Source: a virus. Taken from it: 26,087 bases of DNA. A model generated the notes under the pieces. The model had not been told where the DNA came from. It saw nothing but the letters and a program-made list of their open reading frames with translations, and did not search any database. The position numbers were made by a program, and so were the translations under genes. Where the stretch lies: positions 1-26,087 of IMG/VR virus record IMGVR_UViG_3300020439_000067; one strand, 5' to 3'. How positions within the stretch are numbered: position 1 is the first letter of the stretch; each line of letters begins with the position of its first letter. Shown here piece after piece: positions 11,557-26,087 of the stretch.

Positions 11557-11896
11557 TTTAGAAGACACCCCCGAATACTACATAGGAGAGCATAAGGGTA
11601 TTGAGGCTATGGATGTGGTCTTAGATTTTCAGAGGAATAATTATAATATAGGGACAGCACTTACCTACTTGATGAGGGCTGGGAACAAGCCCGATAATCC
11701 AATGAAACAAGACATCATAAAAGCAATAGTACACCTAAAAAAAGAACTCGACCTTATCGACTATGAAAGTAACAATATATCAATCAATAACAGACACCAA
11801 GAATCCATTTCATATCCCTATTGGTACAGCACTCGAACGGATAAAGCACGGGAAGAGCAAGGACATAATAGAGAAGATAAGGGACACGGGGAATAA
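11546..11896 (+). CDS. DUF3310-family protein with unusual overlapping tail, 116 aa
   Basis: Residues about 10-72 match DUF3310 of phages: EYYIGEHKGIEAMDVVLDFQ, then NIGTALTYLMRAGNKPDNPM, then QDIIKAIVHLKKELDL (compare WxLxxxxGNAIKYLxRxGxKxxxxxDLxKAxxYLxR). The family is often found next to replication genes and sometimes labelled a nucleotide kinase-like or replication-associated protein; the function is not known. Family members usually end soon after the last helix. Here the frame continues for about 44 polar residues, all of which overlap the start of the primase-helicase gene, so the tail may be the consequence of a lost stop codon. Confidence 0.7.
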   Translation: MEYNLEDTPEYYIGEHKGIEAMDVVLDFQRNNYNIGTALTYLMRAGNKPDNPMKQDIIKAIVHLKKELDLIDYESNNISINNRHQESISYPYWYSTRTDKAREEQGHNREDKGHGE

Positions 11897-13598
11897 AGAT
11901 TATAAGATATCCCTGCCAGCGGTATTGTTTAGTGGTGTGTTTGAAGAGCGCAAAGACGCGGGCATAAAGCAACACAGCGGGTTCTTGGTCCTAGACATTG
12001 ACGACCTCAGCGATCCTGCTGAAACAAAAAACACTTTGTCTCTAGACTCATACACTTATGCATGCTGGATATCACCTAGCGGTAAGGGGGTTAAATCACT
12101 AGTAAGAATCAACGACAGCGCCCGTCATCGGGAACACTTCTTTGCCATAGAGAAATACTACCAAAAGAATTACTTGATTGATGTTGACCCCACCGGCAAG
12201 AATATATCAAGAGCCTGCTACGAAAGCTATGACCCCGAGCTGTATCTAAACGAAGACAGCGAAGTCTTTACCGCTTTTGTTAGTGAAGAGAAAAAAGAAA
12301 CCAAGCCCAAGCAAGAGGTAGTAAAGCCTCAAGAGTATACTGACTACAACAAGCTGAACATTGCAGCGTCAATGATTCGTAATGCTGCGGACGGCGAGAA
12401 GCACCATGCCCTTTACAATGCCTCGAGATTATGTGGTGGCTATATCGCAGGCGGGAGGATGCTTGAGGATGAAGCAATTCGGGTGTTGGAATATGAGATA
12501 TCTCTAAGGGACATCAAAGATTTCGAGCATGCAAAGAGGACTATAAAAGATGGCATCAACGAGGGCAAGGGCATGCCTATCCACGAGGTGCTTACCTTTG
12601 AGAAAACCGAGCAAAGAAAGCAGCGCATAAAGGATGGGGACATGAAGTTCATAGCCCCTACTGACGATGACTTTAAATGGATTGAAGACTTTGCTAACGG
12701 CAAGATCGAGCTGGGCCTCACAACGGGGAGCGAAACACTAAACAAATTCTTTAGATACAAGAGAGAGTTTACTATACTCAACGGGCACAGCAACGTGGGT
12801 AAGACAACATTCTGCTTGTTCCTAATGGCTAACGCCAGCATACAGCATGATTGGAGATGGTGTGTGTATAGCTCAGAGAACACTACAGCCAGCACGAAGA
12901 TGAGGCTGATGGAGTTTGTTACCGATAGGAAAGTACATCGGATGAACAACAAGGAGCTAGCAAGCGCATACAGCTGGGTGAACAAACACTTCATCTTCTT
13001 TAGCAATAGAGACATGTATTCTTTCCACGACATTCTAGCTTTCACTGACAAGGTGCGTGAGAGCCAGCACATAGATGCCCTATTCATCGACCCCTACAAC
13101 TCACTAAAGATTGAGATGGGTCAGCACTCTAAGATAGGTGTTCATGAGTACCACTACGAAGCGGCATCAGAGCTATTAAATTACAGCGTCAATAATGAAC
13201 TCGCAATTTGGTTAAACACTCACGCTGTAACTGAGGCGCAACGACGCAAGGACCCGGAAGGATATCCTATCGCGCCTTATGCTGAGGACAGTGAGCACGG
13301 TGGCAAGTGGGTCAACCGCTGTTCCTGCTTCCTCACGATACATAGAAAGGTCCAGCACCACGACCCTATAGTACGCAAGACAACGGAGCTGCATGTGCGG
13401 AAGGTTAGGATTGTTGAAACCGGAGGTGCACCTACCCCTCTTTACGAGCCCATTGAATTCCAAATGAACATCACCAACACCGGATTCTATTGCACGAAGG
13501 ATAACGGCAAAAAAATATTCAAGCCTATCAGCGAGGAATTCGAAACGTACATTCCTCCAAGTAGCAGTGAGGAAGCATTTGATTTATCAGACATATGA
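11763..13598 (+). CDS. Primase-helicase: BT4734/PrimPol-like N-terminus fused to DnaB-type helicase, 611 aa
   Basis: The N-terminal 150 residues match BT4734/VirE_N proteins, thought to belong to the archaeo-eukaryotic primase group: ITDTKNPFHIPIGTALERIK, FSGVFEERKD, HSGFLVLDIDDL with D78 and D80, SPSGKGVKSLVRI (104-116), and DVDPTGKNISRACY. Residues about 195-280 are a helical primase C-terminal-like linker. Residues 310-560 are a RecA-fold motor: Walker A GHSNVGKTT with K347, Walker B ALFIDPYN with D443, and LNTHA with H487, as in DnaB/Twinkle helicases. It therefore probably opens the fork and makes primers. The start overlaps the DUF3310 gene by 134 bases; the family motif begins immediately, so this start is secure. 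Confidence 0.85.
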   Translation: MKVTIYQSITDTKNPFHIPIGTALERIKHGKSKDIIEKIRDTGNKDYKISLPAVLFSGVFEERKDAGIKQHSGFLVLDIDDLSDPAETKNTLSLDSYTYACWISPSGKGVKSLVRINDSARHREHFFAIEKYYQKNYLIDVDPTGKNISRACYESYDPELYLNEDSEVFTAFVSEEKKETKPKQEVVKPQEYTDYNKLNIAASMIRNAADGEKHHALYNASRLCGGYIAGGRMLEDEAIRVLEYEISLRDIKDFEHAKRTIKDGINEGKGMPIHEVLTFEKTEQRKQRIKDGDMKFIAPTDDDFKWIEDFANGKIELGLTTGSETLNKFFRYKREFTILNGHSNVGKTTFCLFLMANASIQHDWRWCVYSSENTTASTKMRLMEFVTDRKVHRMNNKELASAYSWVNKHFIFFSNRDMYSFHDILAFTDKVRESQHIDALFIDPYNSLKIEMGQHSKIGVHEYHYEAASELLNYSVNNELAIWLNTHAVTEAQRRKDPEGYPIAPYAEDSEHGGKWVNRCSCFLTIHRKVQHHDPIVRKTTELHVRKVRIVETGGAPTPLYEPIEFQMNITNTGFYCTKDNGKKIFKPISEEFETYIPPSSSEEAFDLSDI

Positions 13599-14307: not shown

Positions 14308-14657
14308 CAGACGACGCCACACACCGCTGCAGTAAATGCAAGGAAGTTAAACCTAAACATCAATTCCATAAAAGCAACACCCACTCTGCGGGAGTTCAGC
14401 GGTATTGCAAGGGGTGTAAGAAAAAGATAGACAGCAAAGGGCACGGGAAGTATAAGGGTAAATACGCCGTGTACTACCTACCAAAACACAACTACATTGG
14501 AATGTCAAAGAACTTGACAAAGAGAATGCAGAAGCATAGAAAGCGTGGCAAAAATACCACGGGATTCAGAGTGTTAATCGCAACAAAAAATGCAAAACTT
14601 GCACATACAATAGAAAGTCTTTTTCATATTCTAGGTTTTAAAGGTTTTAGATATTAA
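14304..14657 (+). CDS. Zinc-ribbon GIY-YIG endonuclease, 117 aa
   Basis: The N-terminal 40 residues are a zinc ribbon of the kind found in phage HNH proteins: C9xxC12 and C35xxC38 with KEVKPKHQFHKSN between. The rest is a compact GIY-YIG nuclease: YAVYYLP (the GIY strand, Y57-Y58), YIGMS (64-68), R74 with H78 in KRMQKHRKRG, and catalytic E104 in HTIESLF. All the core residues expected for activity are present. Such enzymes act in homing, recombination or host DNA breakdown; no intron or intein is evident nearby, so it may be free-standing. Its stop codon shares TTAA (14654-14657) with the convergent lysis gene. Confidence 0.75.
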   Translation: MTDDATHRCSKCKEVKPKHQFHKSNTHSAGVQRYCKGCKKKIDSKGHGKYKGKYAVYYLPKHNYIGMSKNLTKRMQKHRKRGKNTTGFRVLIATKNAKLAHTIESLFHILGFKGFRY

Positions 14658-15121
14658 TCATAATCAATGTAAGTAATACTTACTTCTCCCCCTTCTTCAA
14701 GTTCCTTAGCAATCGCCGGATAGATTCTTTTATACGCACTAACGCTAGAGCCAATGAATCCATCACTACTACCAAAGTTTGTTTTCTGAGTATCACCAAC
14801 AAGAAGACACCCAGCAGTGTGCTCATCAGTATTACCAGTGTGAATAAGAATGTACTCAAAGTTAGGTACATCACGAACCCATAGCATTCCCTTGTGCATC
14901 TCGCCATACTTAGCTGTATATCTGCTATGAAATCCTCCAGTAGTACGAAGCGTAACCTTGTAAGTTCCTGCCGGGACTCTAGTCTCTGACATAACCTTTA
15001 CACTTCTGTGCTCATCCTCTAACGTATAGCATAAGAACTTACGCTCCCCACCGCTAACATCAAACAACAATCCGTTTGTGCTGTCTGATTCACTACTAAA
15101 TCTTAAAACTTCTAGCTCCAT
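14654..15121 (-). CDS. DUF5675 protein, probable lysis enzyme with L,D-transpeptidase-like motif, 155 aa
   Basis: The core MSETRVPAGTYKVTLRTTGG, then GMLWVRDVPNFEYILIHTGN, then HTAGCLLVGD is that of DUF5675, found in many Bacteroidetes phages next to holins. H94-T-G96-N97 and G104-C105 recall the H...GC signature of YkuD L,D-transpeptidases, so C105 may be a nucleophile acting on peptidoglycan cross-links. No signal peptide is present, so release through the adjacent holin is expected. It is the last gene of the late unit and its start overlaps the holin-like stop as TAATG. Endolysin function is inferred from context and motif. Confidence 0.7.
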   Translation of the reverse strand: MELEVLRFSSESDSTNGLLFDVSGGERKFLCYTLEDEHRSVKVMSETRVPAGTYKVTLRTTGGFHSRYTAKYGEMHKGMLWVRDVPNFEYILIHTGNTDEHTAGCLLVGDTQKTNFGSSDGFIGSSVSAYKRIYPAIAKELEEGGEVSITYIDYD

Positions 15122-15574: not shown

Positions 15575-18500
15575 TTAGTTATCTTCTAAATCCAAAAAAT
15601 AATTTCTAACAATACCGTCTCTATATGCTCTCCAAGGATAGACACCGCCGGTATAAGTTCCGCGAGAGTGTCTGTTGTATATGGACTTGAGCGCAGATAT
15701 TTTCTGAGAGTTGTTCATCTTTTGATAAGCGGGGCTAGTAACAAGTCTTTTTACATCTTTATACCGAGCTTGACCAAATGATTTCATCATAGCATGAGCG
15801 TCCTTAGGCATTATAGATATGTAGTTAGGCTCATTAACATTAAGCCCATAGTAAGCAGACTCCTGCTTGGTAAGTAATATTTTTAGTTTACCTACCGCTG
15901 AAGGGTATCCCGGGATTACATCAGTATCTCCCGTCTCTTTAAACAAGTTGTATATGTCGATCTTAACCGGGTCTTTTGAGCTTATTCTAGATTTGAATAC
16001 TCCAAAAGTATTGTACAACCAAGGGTACTCTTTGTCGCTATCAAAGAAAAGAGAACCTCCGCCTTCTGGAGTTTGAGTTATAGACTCACCCCAAATGTTT
16101 ACTCTAGGCACAACGGACTCTCCTAGACCAAAGAAGTTGAAGGTCTTATCTCGGAGTATGTTTTCCATTGAGTTGTCAATACCCGGGTTCGGATCTCTAT
16201 AGTCGGGCAAGTACTCGCGTCCAGAGCGGTAGAATGCACTGAGTGAGTTAGGCAATACAACTGAGAATCCTGCACGCATGATGTTGTCTAAGTACTTGGT
16301 TAGCTGTCTCTCATTCGGGTCAGCCAACAACTTAATAACCCCATCAATACCAGTCAAGAACGACTGGTCCATCATAGACCCCAAGACCCCGGGGACAACG
16401 CCCGTGATATCGGAAATGAAGTCCATAAAGTTATCAGAGCGGTTCAGTACCTTGGCGTCCATTTGAGCGTCACGCATCACAGCCTTAATACCTACAGCTT
16501 GAGCAGCTATAACAGCACCGCCCAGACCAAGCTTCTGATAGTTAAACCAAACATCATCTGCTTGAAGCGTTGGGTCTTCACCATTAATCAGCCTCTTGAC
16601 ACCGCTAATATTTATAGAGTTCGGAGGAGCAGTACTATACTTCATGTCTCTTTCCTTCTTTCCGTCCGCATCTATAGGGGTTGTGATCAACCCATCCTCC
16701 ATCAACTTTTGAGTTGTTTTGTAAAGCAACCAGCTGATAAATGATTTGGCAAGAAGCTCAGAAAGCTCTCGGTCAGAAACCTTTTTCCCGCCTCTAATAG
16801 TTTTCTTTAGAACTAACGATAGCAATGGCATAACCGGATGAGCAAGCTGTATACTCTGAGACAAGATATTCGCTGGTGTTTTTATATAAGGGATGTGCAT
16901 ACGCACCATAACACGGAAAGCGTTTTCCAAAAACGTACTTCTCTCGCCAAGAATATCAGATGCTTTAGCTATAGACTTATTTATAGCTGTGGCAAATTGG
17001 TTATCCTCTTGGAAGGTAACTCTTAGTCCTGCCTTTTCAGCTCTAGCCTTATACTCTTCATTAGGATATTTTAAGAATCTGTTTAGCTCTTCACCCTTCA
17101 GACCCAAAGACTTTCCTATACGATGAAGCTCATAGCCCTCCATTAATCTATAGAAAGGCATATCACCAAACGCAAGCAGTCTAAACATGATATTAGCGGG
17201 ACCACCGCCAACAGCCTCTAGGAATTTCTTAGCACGGAAATTAATCTCGTTTAACTTTGTGCCGTTCTTGACTGAATCCGGGAGCCTATCGCTGTTAGCT
17301 AGAATCATACCGAATGCTTTGATAGGAGCCAGCTGAAGCTGCATGTTGTATTCAAACTTATCATTAGCAATCGCCCTACCAATAGCACTTAGATAAGCTT
17401 CTCGAGCGCCAACTCCAAATTGCTTAGCCGCGTGTATTGCTGCTGGTATAGAAGGTGGCAGTGTAGCAAGAGAAGGGTCGACTTCTCTGCCCATAGATTT
17501 CTTAATGCCTCTGATAAGAACCTCAGCACCATAGCCCAATGTCTTGTCAGCCAACATTATAGGAAGTGTAGCAAGGTTAGCGGTAATGTTAACCAACTGA
17601 GAAACCGGGGTAAGAAGATTCCCTTGGATTATCAACCCAATGAGCCTGCCCCAAGTCGTAGCAAAGTTTGTATTGAAGTCGTTAAGTTTACTGGTAGCTT
17701 CAGAAACTCTGTTTCTAGCATCTTCCAGTCTGTCTTCAATAGCTGGTATCTTGTTAGTCTCTGAGGTTTCTGACAGCTCCTTAATCAAAGACTGAACGTC
17801 TTGTTGCGCGTCGAACAACTCATCAACAATACCCCCCATGGTTTCATACTCAGAATCAGATAGAGTTGTGCCGTTAGCCTCGTAGATATTGTCTACTAGA
17901 TCTTTCATGCCTGCCGGAGTTTGCCCTTTAACCTCAGCAAACTGGCGGAGCAACTGCCCCACAGCAGTACCCGTCTCAAAGAAACGCTTCAAGACAGCTC
18001 TGTATTCTTTTGTCTTCCCTTGATTCTGTAATCTTTTTAAATATTCAAGTGTCGCTAGCACACGGAAGTCTCCACCAGCTAAAGAGCTCATCGCGTCGTT
18101 GATTACAGAAGGATTATCGCCATCAGAAATAGCGATATCTTTCATCTCAGCAAGCAACTCCTCAATAGACATTGTCTCTAGCTCAGATTTAATCTGATCG
18201 ATCTTCTGAGGCTCATAGAACCTAGACATATCTTCAGCTAAATCCTTTCTGATTGACGCCTCAAATGGGACGTTAGGGTCTAAGCTCTTGAACATCTTGC
18301 GAGCATGACGTCTTTCTTTTGTCTCTAGCCTAGCTCGATCACCGCTATCTACATACCATTCTGGGTAGAAGATACCGCCGGCTCTCTCAAATACTTGATC
18401 TTGAGCTTCATCGAAAGAAATGTTTCCGTCAGCATACTCTTGCCATATAGCACGAACGTCAGACTTGTTTTTCTTCTGAGCCTTAAATCCAGGCGTGAAT

Positions 18501-21500
18501 AAAGTCCTAACGGCTTCCCAAGTAATAGACTGCATCTCTCTTGCGAGCAAGCCTTTTTGTTCTGCAGCATTACGATAAGCCTCAGCGTAAGCAAAGTATA
18601 CACCTTTGATTCCAAGGTTAGAGCTACCAGCTTTAACATCGATAGCCGCAGTACCACCACCAAAGTTATGGAAGACCTCAGCGTCTGAGCCCGATAGAGG
18701 GAGAAGTTCTGCAGCAGCTACAGCATGAGTGTCTATGGTTACGTCTCCCGTGTCTGAGTTCGGGTCGTTGATGTTGTTAAAGAATGATCTCACTTTGTGC
18801 TGATCGCCTACTTTAGAATCAATGTTTTCCATCGTGCCATCGATAGCGATAGAGGTAGCAGAGGAAATCTCAGCATAAGAACCCCAGGCCATTGTCTTCA
18901 TCTCTCCATTAGCCTTCTTGCCATATCCAATGCGCTCGCCAATAGGGCTGACGATGTGATAGTTGCGGTCCTCAAACATCTCGTTATATGTACGCACGAA
19001 CATCGCAGACTCCAAAGCAGCGTTATCGCCTTCAATTATTTCTCTTAGAGACTTGCCCACCATGCCTTGAAGCACAGCCTTTCTTTTTAAGTATGATTTG
19101 TAAGCCTCTTTAGTGGCCTTTCTTTTAAAGTCTTGCTGGTTTAGAATTTTATTCTTGACCTTCCGCATATTTCTCAGAGCGGTATTATACATAGACTTGC
19201 TAAACTCAGTGTCTTTCTGATTGCTCATCACGCGCATCACTGACTCGCCAAGGGCGATGTTCTGATACCAATCCTTCTGAGGAGAAAGCGCAGCCAAGAT
19301 ACCCGCAGCCTGCTCTTGAGTATAGCCATAGCGAACAGCTAGGTCTTGAGCGGTAAGGTTTGCACCTACGTACCAAAGCTTTGAGTACTTCCTTACATCT
19401 TCGCTAAACGAATCATGAAGTTTGATTAAGTTTCTAGTAGCTCGGTCAACAAAAGTTTTGTAGATTTCATCTGCTCTGGTAATCTCTGCATCAGTGGGCT
19501 CGCGTTTGATGTCTAATTTTTTAGCATCCTTAATGTCCGACATGAAAGTGTGTGTAGACAAAATATAAGCACCACGAACATATACCTTAGGAGCAAACTC
19601 TCTGGTATACTCCATTGTAATTTGTCGAGAGCCGTCAAAGTTAGTGGTATTGTCAGCTGACGCAGAAGTGTTTCTAGCTGGTGATACTCTGCTTCCAGCC
19701 CCAACCTTATCTACAGCTTGTGCTACAATCTTATCATCTAGACGCGCGCGATTGCCGTTCTGCATGTAGTCAAGCTTATCTTTAAGAGACTGCAATATCT
19801 CTGCCTCTTGCTTAGCTCTTTGCTCAAATATCCCTTGGAATCTAGTCTGAACGCTTTCGGGTTCAAACACCGGAGTCTCAAATCTAGAAATCATATCCTT
19901 GAGTCCAGCCTCGTCTATGTTTTTAGTAAGCTCTTCTGCTATGACTCCAGCAGAAAAAGGTATAGATGAATTGTCTCTATATGCGGCGAACAAACTGGTT
20001 CCGTCAACATAAGGAATCTGTATGCCATATCCGGACTGCGTCACTAAATCTCTAGCCGGATCTACTTCGATAGAGATAGGATTCACATCGGGCAGCCTTA
20101 GGTCTTCACGAAGATCATATACATCTTTAGGCTTATGCAAAACATCATACTGTGTTATTATCGCCTCGTCTTTTATTGTGGTATATTGAGGGATAAACTT
20201 GTTCTTTATTCCCTCGCTGACTTCGTTCTTAAAGAAAAGATTTCTAGCAATGGTACTTTCATTACCCATTAACATGTGGTTTCTTTGCTGACCGTCTATA
20301 TCAAACACCTCGAACATCGGGAATCCGTTAATGGTAGTTTGAGTTTTTGAGAAACCCACATTAAAGTCATGAAGATCTGGAGCAGCAATCCCGAGCTTTG
20401 CCATTGAACCAGTCATCTGCCAAATGTTCATCGCATACCCTACGAGATCATCAATGGTCATTCTACCATCGCGCTCTGCTCTACCAATAGGATTATCAGC
20501 AGATCTTGTAAATCCATCTTTTTCAAGGATATCGTTGAGTGCTCTAGAGGCCTCTTCGTCTTGCATCACTGCTAACAAATGCAAAGCAACATTTTCGGTT
20601 TTTGCTATATCTATAGCGGTTTCGTAGATGTCTCCTGGACTTGGACCAATAGTCTCTACTAGACTAAATGACTTGTCGTAAACATCATGAATAGCTCTAA
20701 CAATAAGCCTATAAATATCTTGAGCAGTAACATCTACGCCTCTATCAAACTTATCTGTTTTAATATCTACGTAATCCTTTGTAACAAACACGTGAGAGCC
20801 AGTGCCCATAAACGTATTAGCAGCATCTAAGAACATCGCGCCCATCCCATGATACTTAGCAAGCCCAGGGAGCTTTCCATTATACTTGTTTAAGTATATG
20901 GCCGATATCTGAGACTCTCTTAAACTCCTTGTTTGTTTAACTACTGTTTTGCCGTCAAGTGTTTCAACCTCATAGGCGACTCCATAAGCACCATCACCGA
21001 GCCTTCTAACCTTAGAGATAGCCATGCCTTGAGACAGCATATACTCTTCAAGCCTAGCTCTATTAGCGGTAGTTGGAGTGCTCTTTTGTTCTGCTGATTG
21101 AGCGCTTTCAACACGGTACTCATTTATAATTTCTTGTATTTTTTCATTAACCCGCCCTCGATAATCTATAAAATCGTCGGCGTTTACAGCGAGTCTAAAA
21201 GCCTTGGATGAGGTTGACTCATCAACAAAGAAAAGCCTATTGTGCATTACCCGCATGAAGCTATTGTCTTGCTCAGAGTGCATAAGATTAACAACACCCA
21301 GGGTGTCTAGTATTTTTCTTATGGCATCTGAACCCGGCTCACCAACAGACTCAGCATCCGCTATAGATACACCTTCGGCGTCAAGGATAGACTTTATCAT
21401 TGTTGGTGTGATAATATCCAATCCCGCCTGCTCGTAAAAATATTTTGCTGAAAACTTGTTCTCGCTAGGACCATCTGAATAATAGACATCTGTTGATGAC

Positions 21501-24500
21501 TCGGAGCGAATGTTTCTTGATGCAGTCTTAATGTTGTCTCGATAAATTTTAACAACACGGGCTTGATGCTCGGTAGGCTCTAAATCGTCGGATCGCTTTA
21601 GCTCATTTACAAGTTGGCCGTCTATATCAAACAACTTGTACTGAGAATACTTCTGAAACTTATCAGTGCTTTGAGGCTGAGCAAATCCAATGTTGCCGTA
21701 GTGCACATCTGGAAAAATAAAACCAATCTTCTCTAAACTCTCACTCATTTGATAAGCATTATCTAAATAAGCTAATGCAAGATCAAACATCTCGAGTTTT
21801 GTAAATGGTATTGTAGAATCATATACCTCAGAATAATCATCTGGGAAATTAATTTCTGTGAATGTTCGCGCACCGCTTTCTATTATGTCTGCTAGATAAG
21901 TATACATAGATTCACTTACAACGCCAGGAATGGTACTGTCTGATCCAATATATTCTTTTAAAAAATTGTTTATTATTTCCCCAATTTCAAGAGGCGTGAC
22001 AGTGCTCCCTTCTTCAGCAGTCATAATTGTCGGTACAAACTCTTTAATCTGATAAATCAAAGGCTCTGTCTTGCCGGTAGCAGAAACAGCAACATCGTAA
22101 TACTCTGCAAGGCCGGGGAGGTTTCCGTTAAACTCACGCACATACACAGCGGAAGCTATTGTTTCTGTAACAGATTGAGCCTCTTTAACTACCACGTTGT
22201 TACCGCTAGCGTCTTTAACCAAGAATGCATATCCAAAAGCTCCAGACCCTAGGACCTTCATCTCTGATAGGTCTAGGTTTCTATCTAAGGCAAAGTCTAC
22301 CAGTCGAGCTCTGTCTCCATCATTAGCATCGCGCTCTTGACGCATTGCCTTGCCCGGATTATTGTTCGGGTTTTCTTTGATTCGTTTAGCGATATCAAGG
22401 ATATATATCTTCTGACCGCTACGATATCCCTGCGTTACTCTTTCTACTAAGTTTACGAGCTCATTCTCGCTCTTGAGTTTGAAACTAGAGAGCTTGCCAG
22501 ATAATATTTTATTTATAGCACGTCTAGACTTGCCCTTAAATGTTGCATCAAGCTGATTTAAGTTGTCGTTTATGTCTGCTATAATACCAACGATCACCTC
22601 TTCCTCCGCAACAGCTATGGCGTGTTGTTCGGAATGCCCTCTTTCTATATAAAATGTAACGTAGTCATTGAATCGCTCATCCATTTTTTGACGAAGAGAT
22701 TCATTATTGATGCTTTGTAAATCGTTGTATAAAGAAGTGCGAACCCTTGGCTCTAGAACCATGATATTACGCAGTCCTGCGTGAGCAAATTCCTCGCGGA
22801 TCGCCGCAGTAGTTGCGTTGAACATAACGTGAATAGCTGGTCCACCTTCTCTTTCGTGCTCATAGAACGCTTCATAAGGGCCTCCAGTAGCACGCTGTAA
22901 AGACTGTTTTGTTCTATGAATGATAACACGGGGGGCTTCAGTGTACTTATCTGTAAACGCATTGTATGCGCTGTTAAGCATCTTTGCTATACGAGGGGTA
23001 ACTCCGTGACGTCTTGGATTTACCGCACCACCACGAATCTCTATAGAATTATCTATCTCCTCAGAAGCTTCTCTTGCTTGTTCTAGAGATGACGCTGCCT
23101 CCTCCGCGGCGCTTGGCGCTACTCGCTGGGCTGGCCTAGGAGCTGGCTCAACACTTGGTTGCGCTTCTGTTGCGGCAGGTTCATCAACCTCTGGTATAGA
23201 TCGTTCTGCTGTTTGCTCTGCTGCGAACTCTCGTTCGGCTTGCTCAATGGCTTGTCTTGCTGTTTCATTGTTCTCAATTATTTGGTTAACTTTTGCTCTA
23301 TCTGATGGGTTTTCTCTAGCTGATAATAATATTTGATATGCAGCATCCATAGCATCTTGCCCGTATAGCTCAACTACTGCACCGCTTTCGTCTTTCATTT
23401 GCACACGAACACCGCGCTCTGCCTCTGCAGAAATAGCGGTTGGAGTTTCTAATGGTACAAACTGACCCCCACCAAATATAGATATCGCGTTTACCCCAAC
23501 CTCTGGGTCAATGCTAAGTCTTGTGCCTTCTGCTATGTTCGGGTTATCTGGTTTTTGGTACAAGAAAGTACCGTCTTCTTGAACCGCTAATGTCTGACGT
23601 TCAGCAATCGCAGGCTCAAACATTCTAATAGTAGATGGGTCCACCTCGCTGCGCTGCCCAAGTTCTACTTTTTCTGTTTCAGTCTCAACCACCAATGTAG
23701 GATTCTCTGGAGTACCCTCAAGGCGGAGAGTACCTTGTACCTCTGTCCCGTCTATAGGTCTTTCTGCGATAACCTCAGTGCCATCTTCAAGTGTATTGAT
23801 AGTTATAGGGTCTACTGTAGAAGCGCCTTCTGCTACGGAGCGAGCTTCAGTAGGAACGACTGGTGTAGCCAACTGGTCCATGTCAATTGGGTCAATAGCT
23901 GGGGCAACTTCCTCAACTTCAAAGACACCAAAATTATCCATTAGGGTTACAATCTCAGCACCTAATCTTGATTTAAGTTTTGTATCTGTGGCCTCCCGCA
24001 TTTCTTGTTGGAGGGAAAATATTTTTTGACTCTTGTCAATTAAATCTAATTGTTGATCTTGAGTCAGTTCTTCGAAAGCTCTAATGTTTGCATTGAGCAT
24101 TTCGTATTTTTTATTTCTAAACTCTTTTAGGTCGTCTTTTAGGGTTTGCTTAGCTTCTTTGCCCCTTACTTTTTTAAGCTGGTCTTTAGTCTCTTGTATC
24201 TTTTGTTCTACTACTTGTACTTGACCATCACCCATAAGTGAAGCAGCGGTTGTTATACTACTTCCGTTGGCTTTGTTTTTTTGCGCCCACTGAACATAGG
24301 TTCTCTCTGAAGTAGGTGTCATAAGCTCGTTATAGCGCGAGCTTACAGCTCGAGTAGCTGCCGCAGGAGCTGCCATCACTGGCCCCCCGAGCGCTTCCAT
24401 AACAATATCAAGACCCGAGGTGACTTCCCCTTCTTCAGCAATCTGACCGGCAGTTTCACCTAATGCACCACCAGTAGCGTCAACTAATATTTCTGCTCCT

Positions 24501-25549
24501 GCAGCCTTCATTACGCTACCGCCAGCTTTTCTTACAGCTTGTGCGGTTGTCCCCCCAGCTCCGGCCAATAATGCGTCAACAGAAGCAATAATAGCTGCGC
24601 GCACTTTCCTGCGCTCCATTGCATCATGAATTTTTTTTAAGCCCTCTTCTGACTCAAATGTCTTTGCGATTTCTTCGGGGTCGGTTGTGTCGATATGTAG
24701 TTCTTCCATTGCCATACTTATGGCCTCAGACATCTCAAGGGCATAAGACCCTGCAAATGCTGTCCCCGTGGCCAAGCCAACACCAGTACCTATAAGATAA
24801 CCCGCGGGTACAGTAATCTCAGCAAGTGGACCACCAGCAAGACCACCAGCAACTCCAACAGCCTGGCCTTCGGCAACACTAGCAGATACTGTTTTAAGCG
24901 CCCCCTCACTAGCAAAGCCCGAGACTACAGAAGAGAAAAAATTACCAAGCAATTCTGGGAGAACAACATTTGTAATTCCGGGCACAGTACCAAAAGAAGC
25001 CCAAGTCAATGGATCTTTTTCGTTTCTGTATTTTTCTTGAAGCTCGTTGTAATAAGCTAATCGCTCAGCAGCATCTATATTATTTTCTGGATCGCCATCT
25101 AATAAATCCTCTTTAGCACCAGTAGCCAATCCAGTGGCTACAAAGTTATTATACCATCTAGCAGCGCTGCCAAACCAGTCGTCTCTTTCTACAAACCAGT
25201 CGTCAGCAATCAGTGCATGACGATATTCTCTATCGTTTATTTCTTGGGGCTTATTATTGGGGGCTGAGCTTTGTACAAACCTTTCTTCTAAAAGGTCATC
25301 CGAGAAATTTGTAAAGTCAGACTTTTGCTCGTATGATAAATCCAAACCAGTATCTTCCAATCCAAAATCCGTAGTAGGAGTGACTTGGGGCGGTGGTTGA
25401 GTTTGAACTTTTTTTTTACTAAAAGATTCTAGGGCACGAGTTACTTCATCATAAGAAAACCCATTATCAATACCCATTGCGAACAAGCGGTCCTCGCTGT
25501 GTCCACTATCAAAGCCGCTCTGCAATAACTGCAGTAATTCCTCGTTCAT
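15575..25549 (-). CDS. Giant large-polyvalent-type virion protein, 3324 aa
   Basis: A single intact frame encodes a multi-module protein. In order: 1-180 polar, acidic N-terminus; about 185-410 Ala/Gly-rich hydrophobic segments (GVAGGLAGGPLAEITVPAGY, VDALLAGAGGTTAQAV), as in proteins that cross membranes; about 440-545 coiled coil; about 560-880 acidic, Pro-rich; about 880-1000 peptidase-like domain with REEFAHAGLR (918-927) and AEEEV (981-985); kinase-like domain 1 (G-loop 1101-1106, K1122, D1281, D1308); kinase-like domain 2 (1518-1523, K1538, D1725, D1750); about 2000-2390 DUF7178-like module (ILAALSPQKDW, IDTHAVAAAELL); about 2400-3324 C-terminal module with hydrophobic stretches, KTPANI (2890-2895) and PPNSINISG (about 2973), resembling the LPD38 region of phage polyvalent proteins. 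A [GA][DN]RARL motif stands before each of the last four modules. Known relatives are thought to be packaged and injected with the DNA. It lies between a partial late gene and the lysis genes. Confidence 0.8.
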   Translation of the reverse strand: MNEELLQLLQSGFDSGHSEDRLFAMGIDNGFSYDEVTRALESFSKKKVQTQPPPQVTPTTDFGLEDTGLDLSYEQKSDFTNFSDDLLEERFVQSSAPNNKPQEINDREYRHALIADDWFVERDDWFGSAARWYNNFVATGLATGAKEDLLDGDPENNIDAAERLAYYNELQEKYRNEKDPLTWASFGTVPGITNVVLPELLGNFFSSVVSGFASEGALKTVSASVAEGQAVGVAGGLAGGPLAEITVPAGYLIGTGVGLATGTAFAGSYALEMSEAISMAMEELHIDTTDPEEIAKTFESEEGLKKIHDAMERRKVRAAIIASVDALLAGAGGTTAQAVRKAGGSVMKAAGAEILVDATGGALGETAGQIAEEGEVTSGLDIVMEALGGPVMAAPAAATRAVSSRYNELMTPTSERTYVQWAQKNKANGSSITTAASLMGDGQVQVVEQKIQETKDQLKKVRGKEAKQTLKDDLKEFRNKKYEMLNANIRAFEELTQDQQLDLIDKSQKIFSLQQEMREATDTKLKSRLGAEIVTLMDNFGVFEVEEVAPAIDPIDMDQLATPVVPTEARSVAEGASTVDPITINTLEDGTEVIAERPIDGTEVQGTLRLEGTPENPTLVVETETEKVELGQRSEVDPSTIRMFEPAIAERQTLAVQEDGTFLYQKPDNPNIAEGTRLSIDPEVGVNAISIFGGGQFVPLETPTAISAEAERGVRVQMKDESGAVVELYGQDAMDAAYQILLSARENPSDRAKVNQIIENNETARQAIEQAEREFAAEQTAERSIPEVDEPAATEAQPSVEPAPRPAQRVAPSAAEEAASSLEQAREASEEIDNSIEIRGGAVNPRRHGVTPRIAKMLNSAYNAFTDKYTEAPRVIIHRTKQSLQRATGGPYEAFYEHEREGGPAIHVMFNATTAAIREEFAHAGLRNIMVLEPRVRTSLYNDLQSINNESLRQKMDERFNDYVTFYIERGHSEQHAIAVAEEEVIVGIIADINDNLNQLDATFKGKSRRAINKILSGKLSSFKLKSENELVNLVERVTQGYRSGQKIYILDIAKRIKENPNNNPGKAMRQERDANDGDRARLVDFALDRNLDLSEMKVLGSGAFGYAFLVKDASGNNVVVKEAQSVTETIASAVYVREFNGNLPGLAEYYDVAVSATGKTEPLIYQIKEFVPTIMTAEEGSTVTPLEIGEIINNFLKEYIGSDSTIPGVVSESMYTYLADIIESGARTFTEINFPDDYSEVYDSTIPFTKLEMFDLALAYLDNAYQMSESLEKIGFIFPDVHYGNIGFAQPQSTDKFQKYSQYKLFDIDGQLVNELKRSDDLEPTEHQARVVKIYRDNIKTASRNIRSESSTDVYYSDGPSENKFSAKYFYEQAGLDIITPTMIKSILDAEGVSIADAESVGEPGSDAIRKILDTLGVVNLMHSEQDNSFMRVMHNRLFFVDESTSSKAFRLAVNADDFIDYRGRVNEKIQEIINEYRVESAQSAEQKSTPTTANRARLEEYMLSQGMAISKVRRLGDGAYGVAYEVETLDGKTVVKQTRSLRESQISAIYLNKYNGKLPGLAKYHGMGAMFLDAANTFMGTGSHVFVTKDYVDIKTDKFDRGVDVTAQDIYRLIVRAIHDVYDKSFSLVETIGPSPGDIYETAIDIAKTENVALHLLAVMQDEEASRALNDILEKDGFTRSADNPIGRAERDGRMTIDDLVGYAMNIWQMTGSMAKLGIAAPDLHDFNVGFSKTQTTINGFPMFEVFDIDGQQRNHMLMGNESTIARNLFFKNEVSEGIKNKFIPQYTTIKDEAIITQYDVLHKPKDVYDLREDLRLPDVNPISIEVDPARDLVTQSGYGIQIPYVDGTSLFAAYRDNSSIPFSAGVIAEELTKNIDEAGLKDMISRFETPVFEPESVQTRFQGIFEQRAKQEAEILQSLKDKLDYMQNGNRARLDDKIVAQAVDKVGAGSRVSPARNTSASADNTTNFDGSRQITMEYTREFAPKVYVRGAYILSTHTFMSDIKDAKKLDIKREPTDAEITRADEIYKTFVDRATRNLIKLHDSFSEDVRKYSKLWYVGANLTAQDLAVRYGYTQEQAAGILAALSPQKDWYQNIALGESVMRVMSNQKDTEFSKSMYNTALRNMRKVKNKILNQQDFKRKATKEAYKSYLKRKAVLQGMVGKSLREIIEGDNAALESAMFVRTYNEMFEDRNYHIVSPIGERIGYGKKANGEMKTMAWGSYAEISSATSIAIDGTMENIDSKVGDQHKVRSFFNNINDPNSDTGDVTIDTHAVAAAELLPLSGSDAEVFHNFGGGTAAIDVKAGSSNLGIKGVYFAYAEAYRNAAEQKGLLAREMQSITWEAVRTLFTPGFKAQKKNKSDVRAIWQEYADGNISFDEAQDQVFERAGGIFYPEWYVDSGDRARLETKERRHARKMFKSLDPNVPFEASIRKDLAEDMSRFYEPQKIDQIKSELETMSIEELLAEMKDIAISDGDNPSVINDAMSSLAGGDFRVLATLEYLKRLQNQGKTKEYRAVLKRFFETGTAVGQLLRQFAEVKGQTPAGMKDLVDNIYEANGTTLSDSEYETMGGIVDELFDAQQDVQSLIKELSETSETNKIPAIEDRLEDARNRVSEATSKLNDFNTNFATTWGRLIGLIIQGNLLTPVSQLVNITANLATLPIMLADKTLGYGAEVLIRGIKKSMGREVDPSLATLPPSIPAAIHAAKQFGVGAREAYLSAIGRAIANDKFEYNMQLQLAPIKAFGMILANSDRLPDSVKNGTKLNEINFRAKKFLEAVGGGPANIMFRLLAFGDMPFYRLMEGYELHRIGKSLGLKGEELNRFLKYPNEEYKARAEKAGLRVTFQEDNQFATAINKSIAKASDILGERSTFLENAFRVMVRMHIPYIKTPANILSQSIQLAHPVMPLLSLVLKKTIRGGKKVSDRELSELLAKSFISWLLYKTTQKLMEDGLITTPIDADGKKERDMKYSTAPPNSINISGVKRLINGEDPTLQADDVWFNYQKLGLGGAVIAAQAVGIKAVMRDAQMDAKVLNRSDNFMDFISDITGVVPGVLGSMMDQSFLTGIDGVIKLLADPNERQLTKYLDNIMRAGFSVVLPNSLSAFYRSGREYLPDYRDPNPGIDNSMENILRDKTFNFFGLGESVVPRVNIWGESITQTPEGGGSLFFDSDKEYPWLYNTFGVFKSRISSKDPVKIDIYNLFKETGDTDVIPGYPSAVGKLKILLTKQESAYYGLNVNEPNYISIMPKDAHAMMKSFGQARYKDVKRLVTSPAYQKMNNSQKISALKSIYNRHSRGTYTGGVYPWRAYRDGIVRNYFLDLEDN
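18326..18343 (-). other. GDRARL boundary motif 4 (residues 2403-2408)
   Basis: Fourth copy, at the junction between the DUF7178-like module and the C-terminal membrane/ejection module. Spacings between successive copies are 417, 437 and 471 residues. Confidence 0.5.
19739..19756 (-). other. GNRARL boundary motif 3 (residues 1932-1937)
   Basis: Third copy, at the start of the stretch leading into the DUF7178-like module. Codons CGC GCG CGT CTA differ again from the other copies. Confidence 0.5.
21050..21067 (-). other. ANRARL boundary motif 2 (residues 1495-1500)
   Basis: Second copy, 18 residues before the glycine loop of kinase-like domain 2, the same distance as for copy 1. The codons differ from copy 1 (AGA GCT AGG CTT against AGA GCT CGA CTG), so the peptide, not the DNA, seems to be conserved. 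Confidence 0.5.
22301..22318 (-). other. GDRARL boundary motif 1 (residues 1078-1083)
   Basis: First of four [GA][DN]RARL hexapeptides in the giant protein, 18 residues before the glycine loop of kinase-like domain 1. Candidate processing site. Confidence 0.5.
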
Positions 25550-25557
25550 CTAGTATG

Positions 25558-26087
25558 TTATTGTGGGGGCATCGGAGGTCCCGGAAGCGAAGACTTTTCT
25601 TCGTCAACCAATTCTATCTTAGCCCCTTGGTTTAACGCATTTTGTTTTTTAAGTGCATTTACATAAGCGGCGTATTCTTTACGCCCCTCTGTCCCAATAG
25701 GTCTGATAACTCTACTTACGTTCTGATAACGAGTTTTCTCGTCCCAACCCATCACTGGAGTATTGCTTATTTCTCCGGTGCTAGGGTCTTGATAATATGT
25801 AGTTCCGACATTTTCCTTAACAACAATCCCCGTTTCACCCTCAAGTCTTGCTGCGCCTAGCACAACTCTTTGGTAAGTAGGGGTGGCTTCTTGTCCTGGA
25901 TCAGCCTCAATCAATACCTTAATTGGTTTTTCAAAGGTAGGGATTTTTGCTTTTAATTCTGTGGTAGTCTTTGTTTTAGAATCATAGTCATAATCCTCTT
26001 TGACAAATGTCACCGTGTCAGAGCCATCATAGCTTACACCAGCATTTTCTTGATCTCTTCTTCGTGCGTTAATAGAACTAGCCTGGC
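25558..26087 (-). CDS. C-terminal part of a late gene, runs off the right edge
   Basis: The frame is open from the right edge to a stop at 25558; the first residues in the window read QASSINARRRDQENAGVSYD. A GTG at 26013 could start a 151-residue protein, but the frame continues upstream without a stop, so a longer gene entering the window is more likely. The visible part is polar with strands (KPIKVLIEAD, YQRVVLGAARLEGETGIVVK), a helix RKEYAAYVNALKKQNALNQG and a Pro-rich end SSLPGPPMPPQ. It ends 8 bases before the giant gene, so it is probably co-transcribed with it and may be another internal virion protein. No family recognised. Confidence 0.65.
   Translation of the reverse strand, partial: QASSINARRRDQENAGVSYDGSDTVTFVKEDYDYDSKTKTTTELKAKIPTFEKPIKVLIEADPGQEATPTYQRVVLGAARLEGETGIVVKENVGTTYYQDPSTGEISNTPVMGWDEKTRYQNVSRVIRPIGTEGRKEYAAYVNALKKQNALNQGAKIELVDEEKSSLPGPPMPPQ

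Follow-up and report, generated by a model that had tools for sequence, protein, structure and literature searches.

Can a phage carry kinases into its host together with its DNA? To our knowledge, the phage kinases characterised so far (T7 type, 933W) are made within the cell. Kinases have been reported in the polyvalent proteins of Bacteroidetes and Verrucomicrobia phages, and phosphorylation of host proteins was proposed for them (Iyer et al., 2017; PMC5512222). The question is raised again by the virus contig IMGVR_UViG_3300020439_000067, a stretch of 26,087 nucleotides that we refer to as the window, in which a single open reading frame (ORF) of 3324 residues encodes a giant modular protein. 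The initial annotation had described two tandem kinase-like domains with intact motifs in this protein, here termed K1 and K2, and our analysis confirms that observation. The explanation that we favour, with a confidence somewhat above even, is that the protein is a modular ejection protein of a podovirus of Bacteroidota type and brings into the cell two tandem kinase modules that are catalytically competent and represent a new, divergent family. The features that carry the argument are as follows (residue numbers refer to the 3324-residue ORF):

15575..25549, minus strand: giant modular protein, predicted ejection ('polyvalent') protein by homologues and synteny; encoded at the end of the structural operon; 3324 residues, 369 kDa
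22301..22315, minus strand: boundary motif DRARL (residues 1079-1083), start of K1
21515..22318, minus strand: K1 core (residues 1078-1345), with glycine loop 1101-1106, K1122, E1129, D1281/H1283/N1286 and D1308
21068..21514, minus strand: K1 tail (residues 1346-1494), without recognisable similarity to the K2 tail
21050..21064, minus strand: boundary motif NRARL (residues 1496-1500), start of K2
20165..21067, minus strand: K2 core (residues 1495-1795), with glycine loop 1518-1523, K1538, E1545, D1725/H1727/N1730 and D1750
19757..20164, minus strand: K2 tail (residues 1796-1931), poorly modelled

Two duplicated modules with kinase motifs

Every motif quoted in the initial annotation was found in its place. 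The glycine loops read GSGAFG in K1 (1101-1106) and GDGAYG in K2 (1518-1523), the VAIK-type lysines are K1122 within VVKEA (1120-1124) and K1538 within VVKQT (1536-1540), the catalytic loops of the form D-x-H-x-x-N are DVHYGN (1281-1286) and DLHDFN (1725-1730), and both modules contain FDIDGQ (1307-1312 and 1749-1754). The composite pattern G-x-G-x-x-G...V-x-K...D-x-H-x-x-N...F-D-x-x-G with kinase-like spacing matches the giant protein exactly twice, at 1101 and 1518, and none of 3000 composition-preserving shuffles of the protein contained it.

A common origin of the two domains had been suggested from shared words such as NGNLPGLAEY (1141-1150) and NGKLPGLAKY (1557-1566). K1 and K2 are 29% identical, with 52% positives, over 268 residues (E 8e-26), and small alignments of the two were matched by hhalign with a probability of 99%; they are therefore duplicates. 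The duplicated unit extends from DRARL/NRARL (1079/1496) to just past FDIDG, and no homologous repeat was detected by hhalign between the tails (1346-1494 and 1796-1931).

Conservation and divergence among relatives

The giant protein is 98.9% identical in a near-identical IMG/VR contig (IMGVR_UViG_3300037961_002849, here L001), and 11 further IMG/VR contigs encode all or part of it at 62-77% identity over long aligned stretches outside the kinases. Both kinases are present in every relative whose contig spans the region. We aligned 11 kinase copies, namely K1 and K2 of the window, L001, L007, L008 and L013, and K2 of L014. Among 250 gap-free columns, 34 are invariant, and the three loop glycines, the lysine, an early glutamate (E1129/E1545) and the catalytic Asp, His and Asn are identical in all 11 copies, as are the first Asp and the Gly of FD-x-x-G. 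The second Asp of FDIDG is replaced by Met (FDIMG) in the K1 of relatives, so that of the metal-binding motif proposed in the initial annotation only the first Asp (D1308/D1750) is retained as a conserved metal-site candidate. A different feature of the relatives is a stretch of about 170 extra residues in the K1 of L007 (5354-6670), L008 (5357-6673) and L013 (5273-6592), inserted after the N-lobe and ahead of the catalytic loop, which the window lacks.

The ratio of nonsynonymous to synonymous substitution rates (dN/dS) of the kinase cores is 0.09-0.31, which indicates purifying selection. Between the window and L008, dN is 0.55 and 0.52 in the kinase cores versus 0.16-0.17 in the N- and C-terminal modules, and at the protein level the cores diverge about three times faster than these modules. 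Further afield, a tblastn search of 50,697 phage records with the kinase domains gave no match at E 0.01, the N- and C-terminal parts of the giant protein likewise found nothing in these records, and genome contigs searched with the kinase and the C-terminal alignments contained no relative, so that no host or prophage was found. In L013 (2647-12760), the giant ORF lies in two overlapping frames that meet near window residue 925, which may be a frameshift or an assembly error.

Fold and family of the modules

A PDB profile search with the kinase alignment returned almost exclusively protein kinases among the 60 best chains, with weak but consistent best E-values of 0.001-0.02, and the matches were in register over the glycine loop and the VAIK lysine of the N-lobe. 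When single modules were searched against the PDB by phmmer, only chance matches (a picornavirus capsid, E about 1) or none were obtained. In the AlphaFold2 models, built with 11-sequence alignments, the strands and helix C follow one another as they do in kinases, and a long helix precedes the catalytic loop; the kinase core is the better-predicted part, with the tails unresolved. In Foldseek searches of the PDB with the K2 model, the best 50 matches are all kinases or kinase-like proteins (YtaA, APH(9), JNK, PKR, PknB, FN3K, APH(2'')), and with K1, 48 of the best 50 are plainly kinases, mainly macrolide phosphotransferases (Mph), AmiN, CDK4 and GSK3. The matches are thus divided between APH-type and eukaryotic-type protein kinases. 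When the K1 model was compared with viral predicted structures, its best named matches were Ser/Thr kinases of giant viruses and T7-type protein kinases from phages of Pantoea, Pectobacterium, Klebsiella, Enterobacter and Yersinia. The kinase fold put forward in the initial annotation is made likely by the topology of the models in the N-lobe and the catalytic region, by the fold matches and by the invariance of the catalytic residues.

The family is a different matter. Neither PF18762 (Kinase-PolyVal) nor PF01636 (APH) matched any of eight records (window and relatives) at E 10, and PF00069 (Pkinase) matched only relative G006, in the N-lobe of K1, with an E-value of 0.013 that falls short of the cut-off. 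The HRD-x-K-x-x-N loop of Pkinase is absent, the loop of both modules being the D-x-H-x-x-N of the APH type. The initial annotation had likened this loop to HipA, ABC1/UbiB and aminoglycoside phosphotransferase kinases, and this likeness stands for the motif and does not extend to the profiles: the APH profile is silent, and neither HipA nor ABC1/UbiB was listed in a whole-Pfam scan of the 11 copies at E-values up to 10. A PHROG match to the T7-type kinases is weak (E 0.21). Judged by motif and predicted fold, the modules belong to the protein-kinase-like superfamily, and to no family within the libraries searched; at the level of the motif, their catalytic loop is closer to APH, ABC1 and HipA than to HRD kinases.

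A boundary motif and the neighbouring modules

The remaining parts of the giant protein and its neighbours in the window are:

23090..25549, minus strand: N-terminal region (residues 1-820), no family, well conserved
22319..23089, minus strand: residues 821-1077, possible degenerate zincin with EEFAH (919-923) for HExxH, suggestive only
19739..19753, minus strand: boundary motif NRARL (residues 1933-1937), start of the DUF7178 module
18344..19756, minus strand: DUF7178 module (residues 1932-2402; PF23802, E 2.3e-23; phrog_3842, E 6e-27)
18326..18340, minus strand: boundary motif DRARL (residues 2404-2408), start of the C-terminal module
15578..18343, minus strand: C-terminal module (residues 2403-3324), evolves more slowly than most parts (76% identity to relatives)
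25558..26087, minus strand: C-terminal end of the next upstream gene, no family; 460 residues in L001
15121..15573, minus strand: holin-like small protein of 150 residues directly downstream of the giant gene, membrane segment read from the sequence
14654..15121, minus strand: DUF5675 protein (PF18925, E 7e-27), probable lysis gene

The motif (N/D)RAR(L/I) occurs four times in the giant protein (1079, 1496, 1933 and 2404), where shuffling predicts 0.013 occurrences, and one copy stands at the start of each of K1, K2, DUF7178 and the C-terminal module. The copies of K1 and K2 are part of the duplicated unit, and the other two precede unrelated modules. All four are retained in the relatives wherever these are covered; outside these copies, the sampled sequence of the window and contigs contained the motif only in one 73-residue ORF of L036. 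DUF7178 is also present in unrelated proteins of Roseobacter phage CRP-738, phage zth2-2, Rhodobacteraceae phage LS06-2018-MD07 and virus Rctr197k. We considered the motif as a general phage linker and rejected this, as it is absent ahead of DUF7178 in four unrelated phage proteins. The simplest guess is a processing or docking site, and the motif gives a starting point for asking how giant proteins of this kind may be split or threaded.

The region before K1 is weakly similar (E 0.03-0.17) to gp18 of phage elemoF, with PRVIIH...IHV...EEFAH facing VKVIIH...IHI...HEIFH. EEFAH (window 22781-22795) aligns to HEIFH, and if the likeness to zincins is real, the first zinc-binding His would be replaced by Glu. 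A zincin-like metallopeptidase is a common, though not obligatory, trait of polyvalent proteins. A very large size with several disparate domains, also a trait of these proteins, is seen here in the two kinase modules, DUF7178 and the conserved N- and C-terminal modules. The N-terminus of the giant protein has no long hydrophobic membrane segment above the usual threshold. The holin-like protein had only weak PHROG matches, all to families of unknown function.

Genomic setting

In the 55.5-kb near-identical contig, genes for TerL (phrog_6681), the portal (phrog_6547), fibre-like proteins, the coat and other virion structural proteins are followed by a muzzle-matching gene, two genes without a family, the giant gene, the holin-like gene and the DUF5675 gene. 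The giant protein is thus encoded among virion genes, as polyvalent proteins are. The muzzle match is a protein of 1357 residues (L001, 443-4516; PF25731 and PF25729), and the PF25731 muzzle gene is present in six of seven related contigs. TerL shares 42-47% identity with its counterparts in the Flavobacterium elemo phages and MW202828, the muzzle protein matches that of Cellulophaga phi38:1, and phi38:1, elemoF and MW202828 all have a giant gene in the corresponding place, annotated as 'structural protein' in phi38:1 (gp101, 1691 residues) and elemoF (gp18, 3694 residues). On sequence grounds, the phage is a podovirus of Bacteroidota type that is related to the Flavobacterium elemo and Cellulophaga phi38:1 phages. 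The window also encodes a primase-helicase (11763-13598) with a BT4734-like N-terminal and a DnaB C-terminal domain, which points to Bacteroidota hosts, and L032 (11130-15770) encodes a protein of 1546 residues that ends in an endosialidase-type chaperone (Peptidase_S74) and is a probable tail fibre.

Discussion

In phage phi-crAss001, the neighbours of the muzzle gene encode cargo proteins of the virion, whose ejection via the muzzle has been proposed (PMC10172136). With this precedent, and with the synteny of the late structural operon, packaging and ejection of the giant protein would be the natural inference. The protein would be synthesised late, then packed into the virion, and it would leave through the muzzle-type tail together with the DNA. 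One or both modules may then bind Mg-ATP and transfer phosphate inside the cell, most likely to host proteins of transcription, translation or defence, in the manner of the T7-type kinases that work from an early gene. The T7-like kinase JSS1_004 phosphorylates host defence proteins and thereby blocks them (PMC12345140), and it illustrates well what a phage may gain in this way, except that a kinase that arrives by injection would not have to be expressed first. That host targets are phosphorylated as soon as infection begins, as suggested in the initial annotation, is plausible. If active and injected, the kinases would be at work from the very start of infection, ahead of phage gene expression, and could deliver a pre-emptive strike on host defence or transcription.

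Several results speak against this explanation. The AlphaFold2 models reach only a moderate predicted local distance difference test score (60.8 for K1, 53.6 for K2), with the C-lobe portion poorly predicted. TM-scores by query are low, about 0.15-0.30, and for this reason the fold call rests on the agreement of motif, conservation and fold matches and not on the models alone. The top Foldseek rank of K1 is an axonemal chain that is not a named kinase (9fqr, E 1.3e-4), and a PAN2-PAN3 chain is the other exception among its best 50. No significant match of the kinase modules was found in Pfam, NCBIfam, PHROGs or PADLOC, and their D-x-H-x-x-N loop is also that of small-molecule kinases. No kinase copies were detected in the same-position giants of phi38:1, elemoF and MW202828; the kinases are therefore an accessory of this clade, and a conserved position with a payload that is not conserved fits the polyvalent-protein idea. 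As regards the virion-type character claimed in the initial annotation, position and synteny bear it out, whereas no mass spectrometry was found for the giant protein or a true homologue: no proteomics places it in a virion, and for the syntenic gene of Cellulophaga phages there are only 'structural protein' annotations by similarity.

How else could the modules be explained? The loop, and the presence of YtaA, APH(9), APH(2''), Mph and AmiN among the best Foldseek matches, would suit APH- or choline-kinase-like enzymes that modify a host metabolite, nucleotide or signalling molecule. We consider this unlikely, as PKR, JNK, PknB, CDK, GSK3 and the viral T7-type protein kinases match equally well and the PF01636 profile is silent. 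True kinases could also act late in the producing cell, on virion or co-packaged proteins, with a role in assembly or in the timing of disassembly, or on the giant protein itself; the late-operon position agrees with this, and for a HipA-like kinase that is encoded late in Gratiaviridae, Benler et al. argued against an early action as improbable (PMC8008677). The latter kinase, however, is not within an ejection protein, the much faster divergence of the kinase cores is more typical of host-facing parts, and the same-position giants without kinases indicate that phages of this kind can assemble without the modules, which makes such late action distinctly improbable.

That one or both modules are pseudokinases, with a role as a folded scaffold or in ligand binding within the ejection machine, would be compatible with their divergence, the lack of a family match, and the FDIMG and the insertion in the K1 of relatives. 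It is very unlikely, given that every catalytic position including the first Asp of FD-x-x-G is invariant in the 11 copies, while most other positions vary. A likeness that is only motif-deep, with another fold and chance or convergent motifs, could be read from the moderate models and the low TM-scores, but it is hardly credible in view of the order, spacing and joint invariance of the motifs in both copies and of best fold matches that are nearly all kinases.

We therefore prefer the delivery of competent kinases by an ejection protein. A more daring version, which we regard as doubtful, is an injected polyprotein, in which the RAR sites would allow the separate release in the cell of a DUF7178 effector, the C-terminal module and two kinases that differ in specificity; if true, this would mean a kinase-based takeover or anti-defence ahead of any transcription.

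Comparison with known systems

The cargo proteins of phi-crAss001 (gp45, gp46 and the RNA polymerase proteins) resemble the giant protein in being encoded next to the muzzle gene and in their proposed passage through a muzzle-type tail (PMC10172136), but they are channel-type and RNA polymerase proteins without a kinase, with no sequence relation to the giant protein shown. The APH, macrolide and FN3K-type kinases of the PF01636 superfamily share the D-x-H-x-x-N loop and are good Foldseek matches, whereas K1 and K2 have no profile match and no recognisable substrate-binding C-lobe. T7 gp0.7 and JSS1_004 of autographiviruses are phage kinases as well, found among the best viral fold matches and with a weak PHROG match, and they act on host proteins early; they are, however, separate early genes expressed after entry, and the modules described here are part of a late, probably virion-borne protein of 3324 residues.

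Close in concept are the polyvalent kinases of Iyer et al., 2017 (PF18762) in phages and prophages of Verrucomicrobia-Chlamydia and Bacteroidetes. These are also divergent kinases in very large multidomain phage proteins that are thought to be packaged and injected, they are likewise linked to Bacteroidota, and their C-lobe is lost, while that of K1 and K2 is not recognisable. They differ in that K1 and K2 do not match PF18762 at E 10 and form a tandem pair with G-x-G-x-x-G, D-x-H-x-x-N and FD-x-x-G, in a phage that has a muzzle of the crassvirus type. As injected polyvalent kinases were already proposed in 2017, the idea itself is not new. As far as our searches show, the divergent sequence family, the tandem pair, the context of a crassvirus-type muzzle and the (N/D)RAR(L/I) motif are new. 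If the modules are active and injected, the prediction made in 2017 for polyvalent kinases would become testable in relatives of cultured Flavobacterium and Cellulophaga podoviruses.

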